Below are positions 20,619 through 29,489 of a stretch of DNA of 34,824 nucleotides, in pieces. Origin of the DNA: Nitrospirota bacterium (lineage in GTDB: Bacteria; Nitrospirota; Nitrospiria; SBBL01; JAADHI01); contig JAJDBW010000080.1 of NCBI GenBank assembly GCA_029261155.1, positions 1-34,824 of the forward strand, read 5' to 3'. The translations under genes were made by a program, and so were the position numbers. Position 1 is the stretch's first letter. Each line of letters starts with the position of its first letter. The notes under the pieces are model-generated. The model was not told where the DNA came from. It saw only the letters and a list, made by a program, of their open reading frames with translations, and did not search any database.

Positions 20619-21038
20619 TTATAGCGATTCACAAGGTTTACAGACGAGTATGGTCTCTTTCATTTCGCGTGATTCTTTGTCCCATGTATCTAAGTCATGT
20701 CTAATTAATTGACTATAGTGGCAATAAATGTATTCGTCGCTGACTTCTATCTTATGGCAAAATAAACCGTGTATTGCTCTATTACCCAACTCACATACAC
20801 GACGCTCTTTTGTTGGTAGATTATTGTAACCCGCCCATAATTCAAGGAAGGGGCGATAGCTTTTATTTCTTAAGTAAGCGATCTGTTCGTGGTGATTCAA
20901 GAACATTTCTTTAGCTTTTTCTAGAACATCTTTTTCGATTTGTTTGGGAGATATCCTGCCATCGCGTAGGCCAATGAGGTGGTTAGCCTCATTAACCACT
21001 TCAAAGATCACCCAGAATGTCCGTTTATGTGTATGCAT
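20619..21038 (-). CDS. Hypothetical protein, AT-rich gene
   Basis: 139 residues of no family I recognise. It is mostly helical by composition, with several His, Trp and Cys residues (CELGNRAIHGLFCHK, CHYSQLIRHD, and CKPC near the end), without signal peptide or TM. Its codon use is more AT-rich than the neighbouring polymerase, which suggests recent acquisition. It sits between two unrelated genes with no obvious operon partner. The start is uncertain; there is no strong ribosome binding site before ATG 21038. Confidence 0.5.
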   Translation of the reverse strand: MHTHKRTFWVIFEVVNEANHLIGLRDGRISPKQIEKDVLEKAKEMFLNHHEQIAYLRNKSYRPFLELWAGYNNLPTKERRVCELGNRAIHGLFCHKIEVSDEYIYCHYSQLIRHDLDTWDKESREMKETILVCKPCESL

Positions 21039-21100: not shown

Positions 21101-23329
21101 CTAGATCGATTGATGCAAGTGTATCCCCTTCGGCATCAACACTTCCATCGCCTCCCTTAAAAGCGATTCGTATTTTTCCACATCGTAGGCCCAGGCCCCG
21201 TCGATAAATCCAATGGCCCGCGCGCGGTCGGAGGGCAGCTTCGCCTTCATGTCGGTGATCACGTAGGCGATGGCTTGGCCCGGCACCAAGTGGACGCCTC
21301 GGCCTGCGAGTTCCTTCGCCACAATCGCGCTGAGGCTGGCCTTTTGGTAGTCTTCCGGCGCTTTCGAGAGCGACTTGGCGATAGCCAATTCAAAAAAAGG
21401 CACTTGGCCCGAGCGCAGCTGATCTCGATATTTTTCGAAGCAGGTGCCGACTTCCGGCAGGGCTGCGCGATATCCTTGGGCGTCGCTCGCTTTCGAAAGA
21501 ATATCGATCATGTTCTGCTGGACTTTTTTAATGAAATAGGCCGTATCGCCGCGCCGGACTTCAATCCCACGCAGCTTCGTTTTCCCGGACTGGAAACAGC
21601 CCAGGTAACGATTGGGCACGCCGATCTTCGGGTTTGTCTTCGAAGGCGGAAAGAGGAGCCAGGAATAGATGCCTTCGAAGGCGATGGGGATTTCGCAGTC
21701 GCGCGAGATGCGTTCGCAAAGGGCCTCGTAATCAGCCTCCGTTGCGCCCACTTGCTTTAACCAAAGCGAATCCACAATGGCGTGGAGCATCTCGAAGCCC
21801 GCGTCTTCCGCAATCTCCTTTGCCTGGAGTAGCTTCTCGCGGGCATAAGCCGTAATCGCCTCGTGCGCTTCAATCTTGCCGAAGCGGGCGTTCTTGTAGC
21901 CTTGATAACCGAAGGTCGTCACCAAGCCCCATTTCAAGGCCGATTGGCGTTCGTCGTAAATGCGCCGCTGGGCCGGATCGCTTGCCGTCTTTTTTAAGTG
22001 TTTGTAGCGCGCCCGCTTTTCCAAAAAGGGCTCGAGAAAGCGCGGGACAAGTCCCCTGCGTTTTTTGCAGAGATGGTGTCCGATTTCGGGGACGCGGTTT
22101 TCGGGGCAGCAGGTGCAGTTAATCGTCTCGGGAGAGATGTTATATTTTGCCATCAGCGAGGGATACATCGAGGCGAAGTCGAGTTCGCCGATGGCTTCAT
22201 GCAGGCCCAGAATAGGCGCATAGGTAAGGCCGCCCTTGTCCGTGAGCAGGAGTTGGCTCGCGCTTTTAAATCCTTCCGCTTCCCGCTTTCGCCAGGGAAT
22301 GAGGATGCCGTCTTGAAAGGCCAGGTCCATCTGCATGGAGGTGATGCCCGTGCCCGTACTTGTCCGCGCCATCTGCTGCACCGGGATTCTGGAGAGCCGG
22401 GCGAATTCGAAAAGGCCCTCCAATGCCGTTTGCCCGACGAGAAAGGAGTTGAAGCGGTCGATGTGCCAGCGTCCGAAAAGGAGTCGCGCGGCTGAACGAT
22501 GGACGACGGCCCCGTAAGAAAAATAGGAGCGCTCTTTTTTGGCCTGCACCTTTTTATTGGGTTCTCGATTGAGCGCGAGGGGCCGGCCCATGTGCTGGGC
22601 GCTTTGCATGAGTTGCGGCAGGATGCAGGGATCGCCCCATTCAGAAAGAATGAGATCCGGATCGTATTGTTCGAGTATCCGGTTGAACTGATCGACAATG
22701 GCCGCATCGTCGCTGCCTTCGAGCGTGCGGCATTGTCCTTCGATCTCCACCTCCAAAGGTCTCGGACCGCAGTGATCGGGCCGGATGTGTTCTCCTTCCA
22801 TGCGAAGCTTTAAGATCGAAAGCGGGGGGATGCTGTAGTCGGTGTCCCAGATTGAATCCTGGATTGCGATGGCCTTGATTGCCCCATTCGATTCCGCTTC
22901 GATTTCGCAGAAGGCGAGGGGGAAGAGCCGCTTCGTAAAGCAATACAGTTGCGGCAGCGAGAGGTCGCAGTTGTAAAGTGCGAGTGCGCCGCCTTGATGG
23001 CCCTTTTTATTTTCGAGGGAGATGACCCACTGCACAACCTTGGCGAAGTGGAGCGGATTGAAAACGGTGACACGCAGGACGGGAATGTTTTTCCCGGAAT
23101 AAAATTCGATGCCTTCGGACTTGTCGATGCGAAGGGGGAGTTTGAGTTTGCCAATGAAAGTACAAGATGCGCGGAGACGTGCGGCCGGTCCGCCGATGTA
23201 AAAAGACGGCGCAAAGGCATCGAAGAGCCGATGTTTCTTCCCCGCCGCATCGATGAGCCAGAGACGCATGCCGCCGTACACCGGGTAGAGATCAAAGATC
23301 CAGCCTTTGTATTTGAGATCAGAGGACAT
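21101..23329 (-). CDS. B-family DNA polymerase, PolB2-like, with degenerate exonuclease (putative translesion polymerase)
   Basis: 742 residues from ATG 23329; an earlier in-frame start would overlap the upstream gene almost completely, so I reject it. The polymerase motifs are A: ELDFASMYPS (catalytic Asp384), B: KWGLVTTFGYQGYKNARFG (Lys466 to Gly484), C: HAIVDSLWLK (Asp520). In motif C the usual YGDTDS is reduced to IVDS, keeping only the catalytic second Asp. In the exonuclease half the three motifs lack their acids: SILKLRMEGE stands where LDIE is expected (171-180), DPDLILSEWGD where YN..FD is expected (223-233), and FLVGQTALEGL where YxxxDA is expected (296-306). Proofreading is therefore probably lost. 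Sequence around motifs A-C recalls from memory the PolB2 group of archaea and some bacteria. It is the last gene of the lexA-led cassette. Confidence 0.85.
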   Translation of the reverse strand: MSSDLKYKGWIFDLYPVYGGMRLWLIDAAGKKHRLFDAFAPSFYIGGPAARLRASCTFIGKLKLPLRIDKSEGIEFYSGKNIPVLRVTVFNPLHFAKVVQWVISLENKKGHQGGALALYNCDLSLPQLYCFTKRLFPLAFCEIEAESNGAIKAIAIQDSIWDTDYSIPPLSILKLRMEGEHIRPDHCGPRPLEVEIEGQCRTLEGSDDAAIVDQFNRILEQYDPDLILSEWGDPCILPQLMQSAQHMGRPLALNREPNKKVQAKKERSYFSYGAVVHRSAARLLFGRWHIDRFNSFLVGQTALEGLFEFARLSRIPVQQMARTSTGTGITSMQMDLAFQDGILIPWRKREAEGFKSASQLLLTDKGGLTYAPILGLHEAIGELDFASMYPSLMAKYNISPETINCTCCPENRVPEIGHHLCKKRRGLVPRFLEPFLEKRARYKHLKKTASDPAQRRIYDERQSALKWGLVTTFGYQGYKNARFGKIEAHEAITAYAREKLLQAKEIAEDAGFEMLHAIVDSLWLKQVGATEADYEALCERISRDCEIPIAFEGIYSWLLFPPSKTNPKIGVPNRYLGCFQSGKTKLRGIEVRRGDTAYFIKKVQQNMIDILSKASDAQGYRAALPEVGTCFEKYRDQLRSGQVPFFELAIAKSLSKAPEDYQKASLSAIVAKELAGRGVHLVPGQAIAYVITDMKAKLPSDRARAIGFIDGAWAYDVEKYESLLREAMEVLMPKGIHLHQSI

Positions 23330-23346
23330 AAGCTGGGCCGAGGATT

Positions 23347-23634
23347 TTACACGGAGGTTTGGGCATTGTCTTTTCGTCCTTCTTTTTCCAGGCGGGCGAG
23401 GCGTTTTTCCAAACGGGTATTGCTTTTGTAGGCCTCGATGAGCATGGCCACCATCATGGCCTCGAAGGGGCTGGCCTTTGCAGCATAACTGCCTGCGGCG
23501 ACGTGGTACTTGGCGGCCTGAAAGAGGCTGTCGAGAATTTCTTGATCTTCCCTGCGCAAGGCCCGGCGGAATGCGGACCACGCGCTGACTTCTTGGGCAA
23601 TCAATTGTGTGAAGGTGGCGAGCGTTCTGCCCAT
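23347..23634 (-). CDS. Small helical protein (MGRT...RRALRR type) of the polymerase cassette
   Basis: 95 residues, all-helical by pattern, cytosolic. It begins MGRTLATFTQLI, continues WSAFRRALRREDQEILDSLFQAAKYH and a hydrophobic FEAMMVAMLIEAYK, and ends in a charged coiled-coil-like tail (RLEKRLARLEKE). The pattern recalls a family of short proteins (DUF8156-like, as I remember it) common in haloarchaea; I cannot verify this here. An AAGG site precedes the ATG. The polymerase gene starts 17 bases after its stop codon, so they are translated from one mRNA, and the protein may be an accessory subunit or adaptor of the polymerase. Confidence 0.75.
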   Translation of the reverse strand: MGRTLATFTQLIAQEVSAWSAFRRALRREDQEILDSLFQAAKYHVAAGSYAAKASPFEAMMVAMLIEAYKSNTRLEKRLARLEKEGRKDNAQTSV

Positions 23635-23649
23635 ATCAACCTTGCAGAC

Positions 23650-23679
23650 AAAAAAGCCCCCTCCCCTTGAGGGAGGGGG
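23650..23679 (-). terminator. Intrinsic terminator or attenuator inside the SOS cassette
   Basis: On the minus strand CCCCCTCCC (23679-23671) pairs perfectly with GGGAGGGGG (23665-23657) around a five-base loop; after one more base comes TTTTTT (23655-23650). It lies between the RecA-like gene and the small protein-polymerase pair, only 15 bases before the next start codon. Confidence 0.75.
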
Positions 23680-23694
23680 TCTTAGAAAAAATGA

Positions 23695-24366
23695 CTAACG
23701 ATAGCCCTGCGCAGCACGAGGGGCTTCGATGGGAAAGACCCATTGGCGGGCTTCGGGTTTTTCTTCCGTGATACGGATGGCTGCTTCCGATGCATCGCCC
23801 GGACGCTCGACCCGAAAGATGCGCTTGGCCGTGGTTTTAAGATGCGAGAGAAAAAAGGTGCGCCGCCCCGCCGATTTTTTGGGGAAGGGCGAGAGAATGA
23901 CGAAGATCCGGTCCGGCGCAAGTTGTGAGAGTGCGGTGACGATGTGGAGCAGGAGATTCTTGGCTTCTATAAGGGGGACGGATTCGTCGTAAAAGGTTTC
24001 CAGTGGCGCACAGAGGATGACCAAGCGCGGGTGGTGCGCCGTGATGCCGCTTTGCAGTTGATTGAGGACCAGCGATCCCATTTGGTGGCAAGTGAAGGCG
24101 CGCGATACGAAGAGCGAGGAAAGAAAAGTGTTGGGATCGTGACCGATTTCCTTCGCCAAATCGACAAGGGGGTAGGGATTGAAACGATTGTCGCCATCCA
24201 AAAACAAGACCCGCTCCCCTTGGCTCAAGCGCCATCCGGCAAGCAAGGGGGCAAGTCCGAAGAGGGCCGCATCGCCGTAGAACAGAAAAATGCCGCCCTT
24301 CGCATCTGAAATGAGCGAAAGGGGCGGCCCTTGAAAAGGGGAATCGAAATCGAATTGCGCAGACAT
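23695..24366 (-). CDS. RecA/Rad51-like protein without Walker motifs (ImuA/SulA-like position)
   Basis: 223 residues, cytosolic. The sequence follows a RecA-superfamily core: GGIFLFYGDAALFGLAP stands where a P-loop would be (24-40), VLFLDGDNRFNPYPL (53-67) and DPNTFLSSLFVSRAFTCHQ (77-95) match Rad51/RadB-type segments, and PRLVILCAPLETFYDE (113-128) stands where Walker B would be. There is no GK[ST] and no Walker-B Asp, so it should not hydrolyse ATP. Its place after lexA and before a polymerase is that of ImuA/SulA-like proteins in bacterial mutasome cassettes. It may act as a structural partner linking RecA filaments to the polymerase; this is inference. AAAGG lies ten bases before the ATG. 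Confidence 0.75.
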   Translation of the reverse strand: MSAQFDFDSPFQGPPLSLISDAKGGIFLFYGDAALFGLAPLLAGWRLSQGERVLFLDGDNRFNPYPLVDLAKEIGHDPNTFLSSLFVSRAFTCHQMGSLVLNQLQSGITAHHPRLVILCAPLETFYDESVPLIEAKNLLLHIVTALSQLAPDRIFVILSPFPKKSAGRRTFFLSHLKTTAKRIFRVERPGDASEAAIRITEEKPEARQWVFPIEAPRAAQGYR

Positions 24367-24479
24367 TTTGAACGAACCTTTCTAAAATGCAGTTTACCGT
24401 TAACGGTTTCCGGTTTATGGTTGAAAATATAGGCCTTAAAAACCCTCAACTGGGAACGGTGAACCGGCAAGCGTATTTT

Positions 24480-25088
24480 TCAAACATTCAGGCGGATGAG
24501 GCCGACGACCTTGCCGATGATCTGCAAGGTGCCGTTTCTTCCCGTCATCACAATGGGGAAGAAGGCCGGGTTTTCGGGCTGCAGGACGACTTGTCCGCGC
24601 TTTTTAATCAGGCGCTTTACCGTGGCTTCGCCTTCGACCATGGCGACGACGATTTCGCCCGACTCGGCATCGGGTTGGGGCTTCACCAGCACGAGGTCGC
24701 CGTCGAGGATACCCGCATCGATCATGCTTTCGCCTTTGACCTTCAGCAGGAAGGCGTCGTCACATCGGGCGATGGAGGGATCAACCATCAGGTTACCCAA
24801 GCGGTTTTCTTCCGCCAACATCGGCTGCCCCGCGGCCACCTTGCCGAGTATGGGTAGAGGCCGGCTGTATTTTTGCCCCACCACCTCCAGGGCCCGCGCC
24901 CCGCGCCCTTTGCGGATGTAGCCCTTTTTCTCCAGCGCGATCAGGTGTTTCTCCGCCCCTCGTGTTCCAACCATCTGAAAGTGCGCGGCGATCTCCCTCA
25001 GCGAAGGGGGATAGCCCTGCGCCTCAATCCTTTGTCGAATCATCTCCAACACCGCCTTTTGTTTTGTTGTTAAAGTGTAGGTAGTCAT
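24480..25088 (-). CDS. lexA: LexA repressor
   Basis: 202 residues, cytosolic. The winged-helix DNA-binding domain is at 1-65 (LTTKQKAVLEMIRQRI, PPSLREIAAHF). The self-cleavage site is Ala86-Gly87 (VAAGQP), and the catalytic dyad is Ser121 (KGESMIDAGI) and Lys158 (EATVKRL), so RecA-stimulated autocleavage should work. It represses SOS genes until DNA damage. It leads the cassette with the RecA-like protein, the small helical protein and the B-family polymerase. A perfect palindrome covers its own start codon, indicating autorepression. The recognition helix region (SLREIAAHFQMVGTRGAEKHL) differs from E. coli LexA, in line with a different operator. Confidence 0.96.
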   Translation of the reverse strand: MTTYTLTTKQKAVLEMIRQRIEAQGYPPSLREIAAHFQMVGTRGAEKHLIALEKKGYIRKGRGARALEVVGQKYSRPLPILGKVAAGQPMLAEENRLGNLMVDPSIARCDDAFLLKVKGESMIDAGILDGDLVLVKPQPDAESGEIVVAMVEGEATVKRLIKKRGQVVLQPENPAFFPIVMTGRNGTLQIIGKVVGLIRLNV

Positions 25089-25097
25089 ATGACTACC
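25080..25097 (-). promoter_or_regulatory. Putative LexA operator overlapping the lexA start codon
   Basis: GGTAGTCATATGACTACC is an 18-bp perfect palindrome beginning directly after the -10 box. The central ATG is the lexA start codon. It contains TAG-N8-CTA, and is not the CTGT-N8-ACAG, GAAC-N4-GTTC or GTTC-N7-GTTC box of well-studied bacteria. Repressor bound here would block both polymerase and initiation. Confidence 0.7.
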
Positions 25098-25126
25098 AAT
25101 ATAGGAAATAGAGATCGCTTTGTCAA
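25098..25126 (-). promoter_or_regulatory. lexA: Promoter of lexA and the SOS cassette
   Basis: On the minus strand TTGACA (25126-25121), 17 bases, TATATT (25103-25098). The expected transcription start falls within about three bases of the lexA ATG, and there is no ribosome binding site, so the mRNA is probably leaderless. Confidence 0.8.
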
Positions 25127-25190
25127 GGGGGAAGGCAGTAAAGATGATAAGAACACGGTTTGTAAGGATAACAATAAGACTCTTGGTTGG

Positions 25191-26093
25191 TTACAACGCT
25201 GCAACGTGAGTAAAGAAGTTGTTGCAGGTATTACCGTTTAGTGCAGAAGAGGAAAAACCCAAAGGCTGCAGTCTCGCATCGAGGTTTTTAATCTCGATTG
25301 GACCCATACCAGCCGTAGTGGCGATAATGCTACGACCTTTAGTGTTCTCAGGAATGAAGAAGCGAAGGCGACGAATATTGTCAGGATGAAATCCAAAACC
25401 CAGGAAGAAGATCCTTTCGGCACTACTGAGTAGTTCATGCGCTTGTTTGAACTCAGGGCTACAGAAGCCGTCTTCGCGATCCGAAACCTCGTGGATAATC
25501 TGAATTTGCTTTGAGATTTCTAGGATTTCATCTGTCTTGAAACCTGACTGATAGGGTATTTCAGGGTACGGGCCTAAAGAACCATGAACGTGAATGATTG
25601 GAATATTAGAAAGAGTGGTACTCGCTTCGTCCGAACTCATTTCAAAACGAGCCTTTAGGGCCTCATGAAGGTAGACCTTGAGTGAGCGGTCGTAGTTAAA
25701 GGTGATGATACTTAGTCGGCTTTCCGCAAAGGCTGGCGCGCCGTCGCCTCCGAGCAGAGAGTTGAAGAGATATCGATACCATCCAGAATTGTGCGGAGGG
25801 AAGAGTCGGTTAATGTCTTCATGACGTTTCATTTCTCGCGCGATTAGATATTTTCCAAGATCTGACTGCGCAGGGACAGTTTCTAGAAAAGCATCTATGG
25901 AGGAATGACCTGCCCGACTTAGGCGAGTGAGGAAGTGATCGACTTCATCGTTTGACCAGCTTACTGACGGGTTCTTTTGACAAGCTAAATCACGTTGACG
26001 ACAGAGATCATCAATGAGGCTGCCGCCCAACGGATAATCAACATGCACACTCGCACCTGCGCCGAGCACCAATACTGTAGGAGTAGTGATCAT
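25191..26093 (-). CDS. SIR2-like domain protein
   Basis: 300 residues from ATG 26093; a GTG at 26117 adds eight residues and is equally possible. The NAD-binding features of the SIR2 superfamily are visible: VLVLGAGAS (7-15) followed by YPLGGSLI, ITFNYD (130-135), HVHGSLG (168-174, with the likely catalytic His170) and FFLGFGFHPDN (229-239). This belongs to the SIR2_2-like group rather than to the classical zinc-containing deacetylases, as no zinc Cys pairs are seen. Related domains in antiphage systems degrade NAD. Here it has no fused sensor and no obvious partner gene, so it may be a lone defence effector or a housekeeping NAD enzyme. It lies 102 bases upstream of lexA on the same strand. 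Confidence 0.75.
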   Translation of the reverse strand: MITTPTVLVLGAGASVHVDYPLGGSLIDDLCRQRDLACQKNPSVSWSNDEVDHFLTRLSRAGHSSIDAFLETVPAQSDLGKYLIAREMKRHEDINRLFPPHNSGWYRYLFNSLLGGDGAPAFAESRLSIITFNYDRSLKVYLHEALKARFEMSSDEASTTLSNIPIIHVHGSLGPYPEIPYQSGFKTDEILEISKQIQIIHEVSDREDGFCSPEFKQAHELLSSAERIFFLGFGFHPDNIRRLRFFIPENTKGRSIIATTAGMGPIEIKNLDARLQPLGFSSSALNGNTCNNFFTHVAAL

Positions 26094-26221
26094 ACAAAAC
26101 CCGGCTTCGTACGCCACATAACAAAGTGACGTCTCGTTTCAAAGAAAAACATAAAATTAACGTTCAGGCCCTGAAGCAAGTCTTCAGACTCCTCTCTCCC
26201 CAGAACACCAAACTCCTAACC

Positions 26222-28328: not shown

Positions 28329-29489
28329 ATGATTCTCCACATTGATATGGATGCTTTTTATGCCTCGGTCGAAGAGCGCGAGCAGCCTGCGCTTCGGGGT
28401 AAGGCCGTGATCGTCGGCGGCAGTCCGAAGGGGCGCGGGGTGGTGGCGGCGGCGAATTACAAGGCCCGTGCCTTTGGCGTTCACAGCGCCATGCCTGCTT
28501 CAAAGGCATTGCGGCTCTGTCCTCAGGCCGTCTTTCTTTCGCCTCGAATTCAGTACTATGCCGAGGTTTCCGAACAGATCCAAGCGATCTTTCAAAGCTA
28601 TACGCCGCTGGTAGAGCCCTTGTCTTTAGATGAGGCCTTTCTCGATGTGCAGGGCAGTGAAGCGTGTTTCGGAAGTGCTCAAAAAATCGGAAAAGAAATA
28701 AAAGCCCGTATTCTCAGAGAGCTTCGCCTCTGCGCCTCGGTGGGGATTGCACCCAATAAATTTCTTGCCAAGGTCGCCAGCGATGTGGGCAAACCCGATG
28801 GCTTTGTCGTGGTTCAGCAGGATCAGATTCAATCTTTTCTCGACCCGCTCCCTGTGGGTCGCCTTTGGGGTGTGGGGAAAGCCAGCGATCATGTGCTCGC
28901 GCAGCTTGGCATCCGAACTATTGCGCAGCTACGCCGCCAACCGCCTGCACTCCTTCAACAGCTATTTGGAAAGTGGGGGAGGCATCTTTTAGAACTGGCT
29001 CAGGGGCAGGACGATCGTCCGGTTATTCCGGATCGTGAGGCCAAGTCCATTTCTCACGAAACGACCTTTGAAAGTGACCTTCAGGATAAGGCTCTGCTGC
29101 GATCCTATATGGTGATGCTTTGCGAGCAGGTGGCCCGCCGCTTACGGCGACACAAGCTGAGCGCCCGTACCGTGGAGATTAAGATCCGTTTCGCCGATTT
29201 TAAAACCATTACACGCGCACAGACCTTGGCGCAAGGCACGCACGCGACGCAAGATCTCGTAAAGGTCGCTGTTGCGCTGATGCAAAATCACCTCCCTAAA
29301 AAACACCGCGGCCTGCGCTTGTTGGGCATGGGGACAAGTCATTTTAATACCGGAACACCGACCCAGGGGGAATTGTTTGTCGATGAAGCGGCCCTAAAGA
29401 AACAGCGTCTTGATGCAGCCGCCGACCGGATCCAAGACAAATACGGCACCGCCGCCCTTAAGCGAGGCAGCCGCCTCTCGATTTCCTAA
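28329..29489 (+). CDS. dinB: DNA polymerase IV (Y family)
   Basis: 386 residues, cytosolic translesion polymerase. The catalytic acids are Asp6 and Asp8 (HIDMDAFYASVE) and Asp101-Glu102 (SLDEAFLD). The helix-hairpin-helix thumb (PVGRLWGVGKASDHVLAQLGI) and the little-finger domain follow, and the length is normal. Near the C-terminus QGELF may be the sliding-clamp binding motif. It lacks a ribosome binding site before the ATG, in line with a leaderless message. A short hairpin with a T-rich tail follows. It does not carry the lexA palindrome, so SOS control, if any, uses another site. Confidence 0.95.
   Translation: MILHIDMDAFYASVEEREQPALRGKAVIVGGSPKGRGVVAAANYKARAFGVHSAMPASKALRLCPQAVFLSPRIQYYAEVSEQIQAIFQSYTPLVEPLSLDEAFLDVQGSEACFGSAQKIGKEIKARILRELRLCASVGIAPNKFLAKVASDVGKPDGFVVVQQDQIQSFLDPLPVGRLWGVGKASDHVLAQLGIRTIAQLRRQPPALLQQLFGKWGRHLLELAQGQDDRPVIPDREAKSISHETTFESDLQDKALLRSYMVMLCEQVARRLRRHKLSARTVEIKIRFADFKTITRAQTLAQGTHATQDLVKVAVALMQNHLPKKHRGLRLLGMGTSHFNTGTPTQGELFVDEAALKKQRLDAAADRIQDKYGTAALKRGSRLSIS

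Follow-up and report, generated by a model that had tools for sequence, protein, structure and literature searches.

Bacterial damage-induced mutagenesis is mostly known through Y-family and DnaE2 enzymes. An operon with a B-family polymerase in their position, lexA-iRadA-arCOG07300-PolB2, has been predicted in Leptospirillum ferriphilum (LFML04_0990-0993; Makarova 2014, PMC4104785). Timinskas 2025 subsequently named PPB2 and iRadA, modelled a PolB2-iRadA-PPB2 trimer as a translesion complex and found lexA enriched nearby (PMC11791011), and a survey of 2026 counts PolB2 among the bacterial polymerases (PMC12926913). The stretch of DNA analyzed here (the window, 34,824 nucleotides) is an entire contig, C78, of a Nitrospirota bacterium (GCA_029261155.1) whose genome comprises 3.56 Mb in 90 contigs, with an estimated completeness of 95.6%; on its minus strand lexA, iRadA, PPB2 and PolB2 follow one another, the same four genes as in the Leptospirillum operon. 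This kind of four-gene operon is already described, and the window is a further example from the Nitrospirota, to which Leptospirillum also belongs. We consider it highly probable that the locus represents a bacterial PolB2 mutasome operon, complete and governed by its own self-regulated LexA, for which we infer damage induction and polymerase activity. Possibly new are the operator, the presence of two copies in one genome and the exchange with ImuB-DnaE2 behind the same type of repressor, none of which is stated in the passages of PMC4104785, PMC11791011 and PMC12926913 covered here, a partial sample of the literature. In particular, the part of PMC4104785 concerned describes neither the operator nor the anatomy of the promoter, reports no genome with two copies and draws no comparison with ImuB-DnaE2, and ImuB, DnaE2, phages and Nitrospirota go without mention in the main text of PMC11791011.

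The first-pass annotation had described the four genes in this order, led by a promoter and a palindrome, and the open reading frame list and the sequence of the window show just this arrangement, with one strong promoter in front:

25121..25126, minus strand: TTGACA, -35 hexamer in the promoter of lexA (TTGACA-17-TATATT, 11/12 consensus matches)
25098..25103, minus strand: -10 hexamer TATATT, its end 9 nt ahead of the lexA ATG
25080..25097, no strand assigned: perfect 18-bp palindrome GGTAGTCATATGACTACC, the predicted LexA operator, spanning the lexA start codon
24480..25088, minus strand: lexA, 202 aa, with LexA DNA-binding domain and S24 peptidase
23695..24366, minus strand: iRadA, 223 aa, RadA/Rad51 fold (profile and structure-model matches)
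23657..23679, minus strand: terminator-like hairpin CCCCCTCCC TCAA GGGGAGGGGG followed by a U-tract, between iRadA and PPB2
23347..23634, minus strand: PPB2 (arCOG07300 type), 95 aa, with MGRT N-terminus (alignment of relatives)
21101..23329, minus strand: PolB2, B-family polymerase, 742 aa (family profiles, motifs, alignment)

The PolB2 start is most likely at 23329, giving 742 aa, by alignment with relatives, and the GTG at 23581 is a purely mechanical start of the open reading frame. The protein matches DNA_pol_B (7e-37); among NCBIfam models it comes closest to PRK05761.1-2, a type B polymerase (397.8 bits, under the cut-off of 516 for that model), and its nearest solved structure is the DNA polymerase 5mdn (7e-53). 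Motif A (LDFASMYP) is intact, in motif C the D-T-D is replaced by IVDS (GDTDS of 5mdn aligned to AIVDS), and the exonuclease motif is lost (FDIEVY of 5mdn aligned to LRME). The motif C substitution and the lost exonuclease are marks of PolB2 according to the relevant passages of PMC11791011. The same passages characterize E. coli Pol II (polB) as likewise B-family and SOS-induced, but as a single-subunit enzyme with an active exonuclease; the window PolB2 lacks the 3′-5′ exonuclease motif and lies outside the Pol II clade, distant from it in a quick tree.

The evidence for iRadA is of a different nature. Single-sequence matches are weak (Rad51, 19 bits; RadA, 3.9e-05), but a profile of 38 relatives searched against the PDB finds archaeal RadA (4a6p, 4.4e-11), and the AlphaFold model (predicted local distance difference test, pLDDT, 90) matches RAD51/DMC1/RadA structures with an E-value of 7e-13 and a template modeling score of about 0.7. 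The sequence has neither the GKT of Walker A nor the aspartate of Walker B, and the protein is accordingly predicted to be a RadA-fold non-ATPase. The first-pass annotation had read it as a RecA-like protein without ATPase motifs, which holds; identity with ImuA was rejected, since the best single-domain PDB matches of the profile are archaeal RadA. In PPB2, the residues M1, G2, R3 and T4 are invariant among 33 aligned sequences, partly by construction as the set was picked by GRT. Its model is helical (pLDDT 91), and a fold search of the PDB returned no significant match, so that the likeness to sigma factors described in PMC11791011 was not reproduced by this search. QRMDF and HRLDL, with which PPB2 ends in some relatives, were considered as a clamp motif and dropped, being absent in the window and not kept in wider relatives. 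Taken together, the cassette agrees with the PolB2 mutasome, as presented in the covered part of PMC11791011, in its iRadA-PPB2-PolB2 order, the altered DxD and inactive exonuclease of the polymerase, the inactive RadA homolog, the MGRT of PPB2 and the bacterial gene order with lexA nearby.

A second cassette is found on contig C20 of the same genome. Its PolB2 is 86% identical to that of the window, the two being sisters in the quick tree, and the similarity between the two loci is confined to the cassette (78.8% DNA identity, window 21142-25130). Beyond these, the genome encodes one DnaE and one Y-family polymerase, DinB (28329-29489), and a single RecA match over the cut-off; ImuB, DnaE2 and UmuC were not found in it. 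The sister species G001, a member of the same genus, carries lexA, an imuA-like gene (weak match, NF033429, E 0.0045), a gene of 505 aa without library match in the place of imuB, and dnaE2, and it has no PolB2. Because PF00817 misses this ImuB-like protein, the protein itself was used as the query, and this search found no relative in the window genome. The claim that PolB2 stands here instead of ImuB-DnaE2 is thereby supported. The lexA-imuA-imuB-dnaE2 cassette is similar in having a LexA-type head, a recombinase homolog and an error-prone polymerase, and among relatives the two kinds share repressor and operator class; the window cassette differs in its B-family rather than C-family polymerase, its RadA-type recombinase homolog, the lack of ImuB and the addition of PPB2.

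LexA itself scores 201.8 bits against TIGR00498 (cut-off 110.95), and its self-cleavage residues, read from the sequence, are intact: the AG site (within VAAG), the serine (within GESM) and the lysine (within TVKR). Together with the operator-like palindrome at the promoter, where LexA binding is a prediction, this provides what an SOS operon would need. As the -10 box ends 9 nt before the ATG and the operator lies over the start codon, the lexA message is predicted to be leaderless or nearly so. The pattern GGTAG-N8-CTACC occurs once in the whole genome, at the window lexA, compared with 11 occurrences of the reversed control pattern; the C20 cassette has a copy with one mismatch within the 16-bp core, and apart from the two cassettes matches with ≤3 mismatches are at control level. 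Upstream of recA and dinB, no such palindrome was seen by eye. Among relatives the place of the palindrome is kept and its sequence changed, and TTGAC precedes it in 23/25 repressor genes heading PolB2 and in 23/26 heading DnaE2. Since the palindrome score of single sequences is unremarkable against shuffles, the argument rests on this constant place and its repetition. Only two LexA genes were found in the genome, each heading one PolB2 cassette, and LexA appears dedicated to these cassettes, given that the operator is single in the genome but for the C20 copy and none was seen upstream of recA or dinB.

We suggest the following scenario. LexA bound at the palindrome would block its own operon; DNA damage would lead to RecA filaments and through these to self-cleavage of LexA, whereupon lexA, iRadA, PPB2 and PolB2 would be expressed. 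PolB2, in a heteropentamer with a single iRadA and three PPB2 subunits, would then extend mismatched or damaged primer ends, as has been reported for archaeal Dpo2 and, for bacteria, modelled in the passages of PMC11791011 covered. The PolB2 cassette would thus be the only dedicated mutasome here beside DinB, in place of the ImuA-ImuB-DnaE2 of the sister species.

The wider distribution was assessed in a set of 147 genomes, made up of relatives and the window's own; PolB2 is encoded by 26. All 26 also have a LexA match, and of the 27 genomes that lack such a match none encodes PolB2 (Fisher p=0.0043; the genes being adjacent, this is partly one observation). Most loci, where the contig permits, have the order repressor, iRadA, PPB2, PolB2. 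The linkage of the polymerase to lexA and the RadA-like gene also extends to named loci and exceeds what chance would give: of the 50 in which PolB2 has ≥2.9 kb of sequence ahead of it, PPB2 and iRadA were each found in 48 and a LexA-type repressor in 36, upstream and on the same strand. Named relatives come from Nitrospirota such as Candidatus Manganitrophus, then from Armatimonadota, Bacteroidota, Ignavibacteriota, Myxococcota and others. The first-pass annotation had raised an archaeal type for the polymerase and the small protein; these two and the RadA homolog belong to the archaeal PolB2-operon type, and the same iRadA-PPB2-PolB2 order stands behind cdc6 on a Haladaptatus plasmid. Leptospira phage LE1 carries the three genes as well; its PPB2 (L102, KF114880.1 3766-4008) is annotated too short, the probable true start being an upstream MGRT. 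At one locus a DUF72-like gene, assigned by eye, lies between PPB2 and PolB2 (L171 2391-3200), an association that is also named in the part of PMC11791011 covered. In the quick tree, the window polymerase groups with its bacterial PolB2 relatives, and these stand together with the Leptospira phage, apart from haloarchaea and outgroup. This split agrees with one transfer from archaea to bacteria, for which the passages of PMC11791011 argue, although the sparse archaeal sampling cannot prove it. Repressor-iRadA remnants without PolB2 (L216, L217, L219, L236) and broken or partial PolB2 genes (L043, L057, L059, L061, L066, L067) among relatives suggest that the cassette is often lost.

Within the single genome G011, imuB-dnaE2 (NF004225, 1250.9 bits) stands behind a LexA whose operator is GGTAGACGTATGTCTACC, and another LexA, behind GGTAGACATATGCCTACC, heads PolB2, which there follows lexA without iRadA and PPB2 (L047 6985-9916). 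ImuB-DnaE2 cassettes with the same repressor and operator class occur behind GGTAGACGTATGTCTACC (L185) and ATGTAACCATTGGTTACAT (L195, L261, L272). The families f6, a large one, and f13 have an XRE-S24 repressor whose operator is ATGTAACCATTGGTTACAT or closely resembles it; what follows this repressor is PolB2, ImuB-DnaE2 or neither. Across the class, a self-cleaving repressor of one kind, sometimes with the same operator, heads either machine, and the repressor tree requires eight label changes for PolB2 and six for DnaE2. Among f6 genomes the two rarely occur together: one has both, 12 have PolB2 only, 40 DnaE2 only and 36 neither (Fisher p=0.0025); counting three genomes with only PolB2 fragments as lacking PolB2 gives p=0.018. 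Both p-values are uncorrected for phylogeny and assume an independence of genomes that does not hold. Losses account for part of this pattern.

Other explanations have to be weighed against a LexA-controlled mutasome. The cassette LexA could repress the cell's SOS genes in general, with the PolB2 operon as only one target of many, and the presence of RecA along with no LexA-family protein other than the two that could run an SOS response speaks in its favor; yet the full operator is single in the genome, its near matches do not exceed control level outside the cassettes, and recA and dinB show no such palindrome by eye. A global LexA regulon was therefore rejected as first choice, the operator being found only at cassettes, and we regard it as rather doubtful. 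A catalytically dead PolB2 with a regulatory or structural role, the reading held in the relevant passages of PMC4104785, would account for the absent first aspartate of motif C and the lost exonuclease motif. Against it stand the invariance of the motif A aspartate (D384) and of the second aspartate in motif C (D520) and the report, in the part of PMC11791011 covered, that an archaeal PolB2 carrying this substitution has activity and is required for targeted mutagenesis, so that we hold this to be very improbable.

The cassette might also be mainly cargo of mobile or defense islands, with PolB2 there for survival or for replication of the element and not for mutagenesis of the host. Its patchy presence among relatives, the carriage of the genes by phage LE1, two copies that share nothing but the cassette and the caspase-, TIR- and SMC-like neighbors of the C20 copy would fit; conversely, one gene order prevails in the class, the genes track lexA, and in IMG/VR a relative turned up on no more than three viral contigs. 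We consider this unlikely. The C20 neighbors (L038 8128-18710) are scored by PADLOC models and suggest that this neighborhood may be a defense island. A SIR2-like protein (25191-26117; PADLOC SIR2, 7.8e-07) is encoded directly upstream of lexA in the window, on the same strand; this gene and that at 20619-21038 were rejected as cassette members, having no matches at the cassettes of relatives.

Several observations nevertheless count against a complete, jointly expressed mutasome that replaces ImuB-DnaE2. At the estimated completeness of the genome, a missing imuB or dnaE2 could sit in a gap, and the replacement is not absolute, as G011 holds both systems. Reading of the C-termini of iRadA and PolB2, with no motif profile run, revealed no clear beta-clamp motif (only QWVFPI in iRadA and no QLxLF), whereas part of the members in PMC11791011, in the passages covered, have one in iRadA or PolB2. 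The terminator-like hairpin inside the operon may weaken joint expression and, as a suggestion only, could reduce the output of PPB2 and PolB2 relative to LexA and iRadA; taken alone it is moderate (z-scores -1.6), the C20 copy also has one with a different stem sequence, and in relatives the iRadA-PPB2 gap is mostly short. The broken PolB2 genes of several relatives imply that the system is dispensable. The tree was made by a quick method, its archaea are haloarchaea only and its outgroup branches are long.

With even confidence for and against, we propose for the Nitrospirota that a self-cleaving repressor, whose operator covers the start codon of its own gene, acts as an autonomous damage switch independent of any wider SOS regulon. 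Behind this switch, evolution would plug in PolB2 or the unrelated ImuB-DnaE2 mutasome, swapping, duplicating or dropping the module. A concrete operator sequence is now given for testing LexA control of PolB2. In this lineage, similar repressors stand in front of an archaeal-type PolB2 complex in some close relatives and of ImuB-DnaE2 in others. This amounts to a natural replacement experiment, raising the questions of whether the two machines are interchangeable and whether they leave different mutation spectra.

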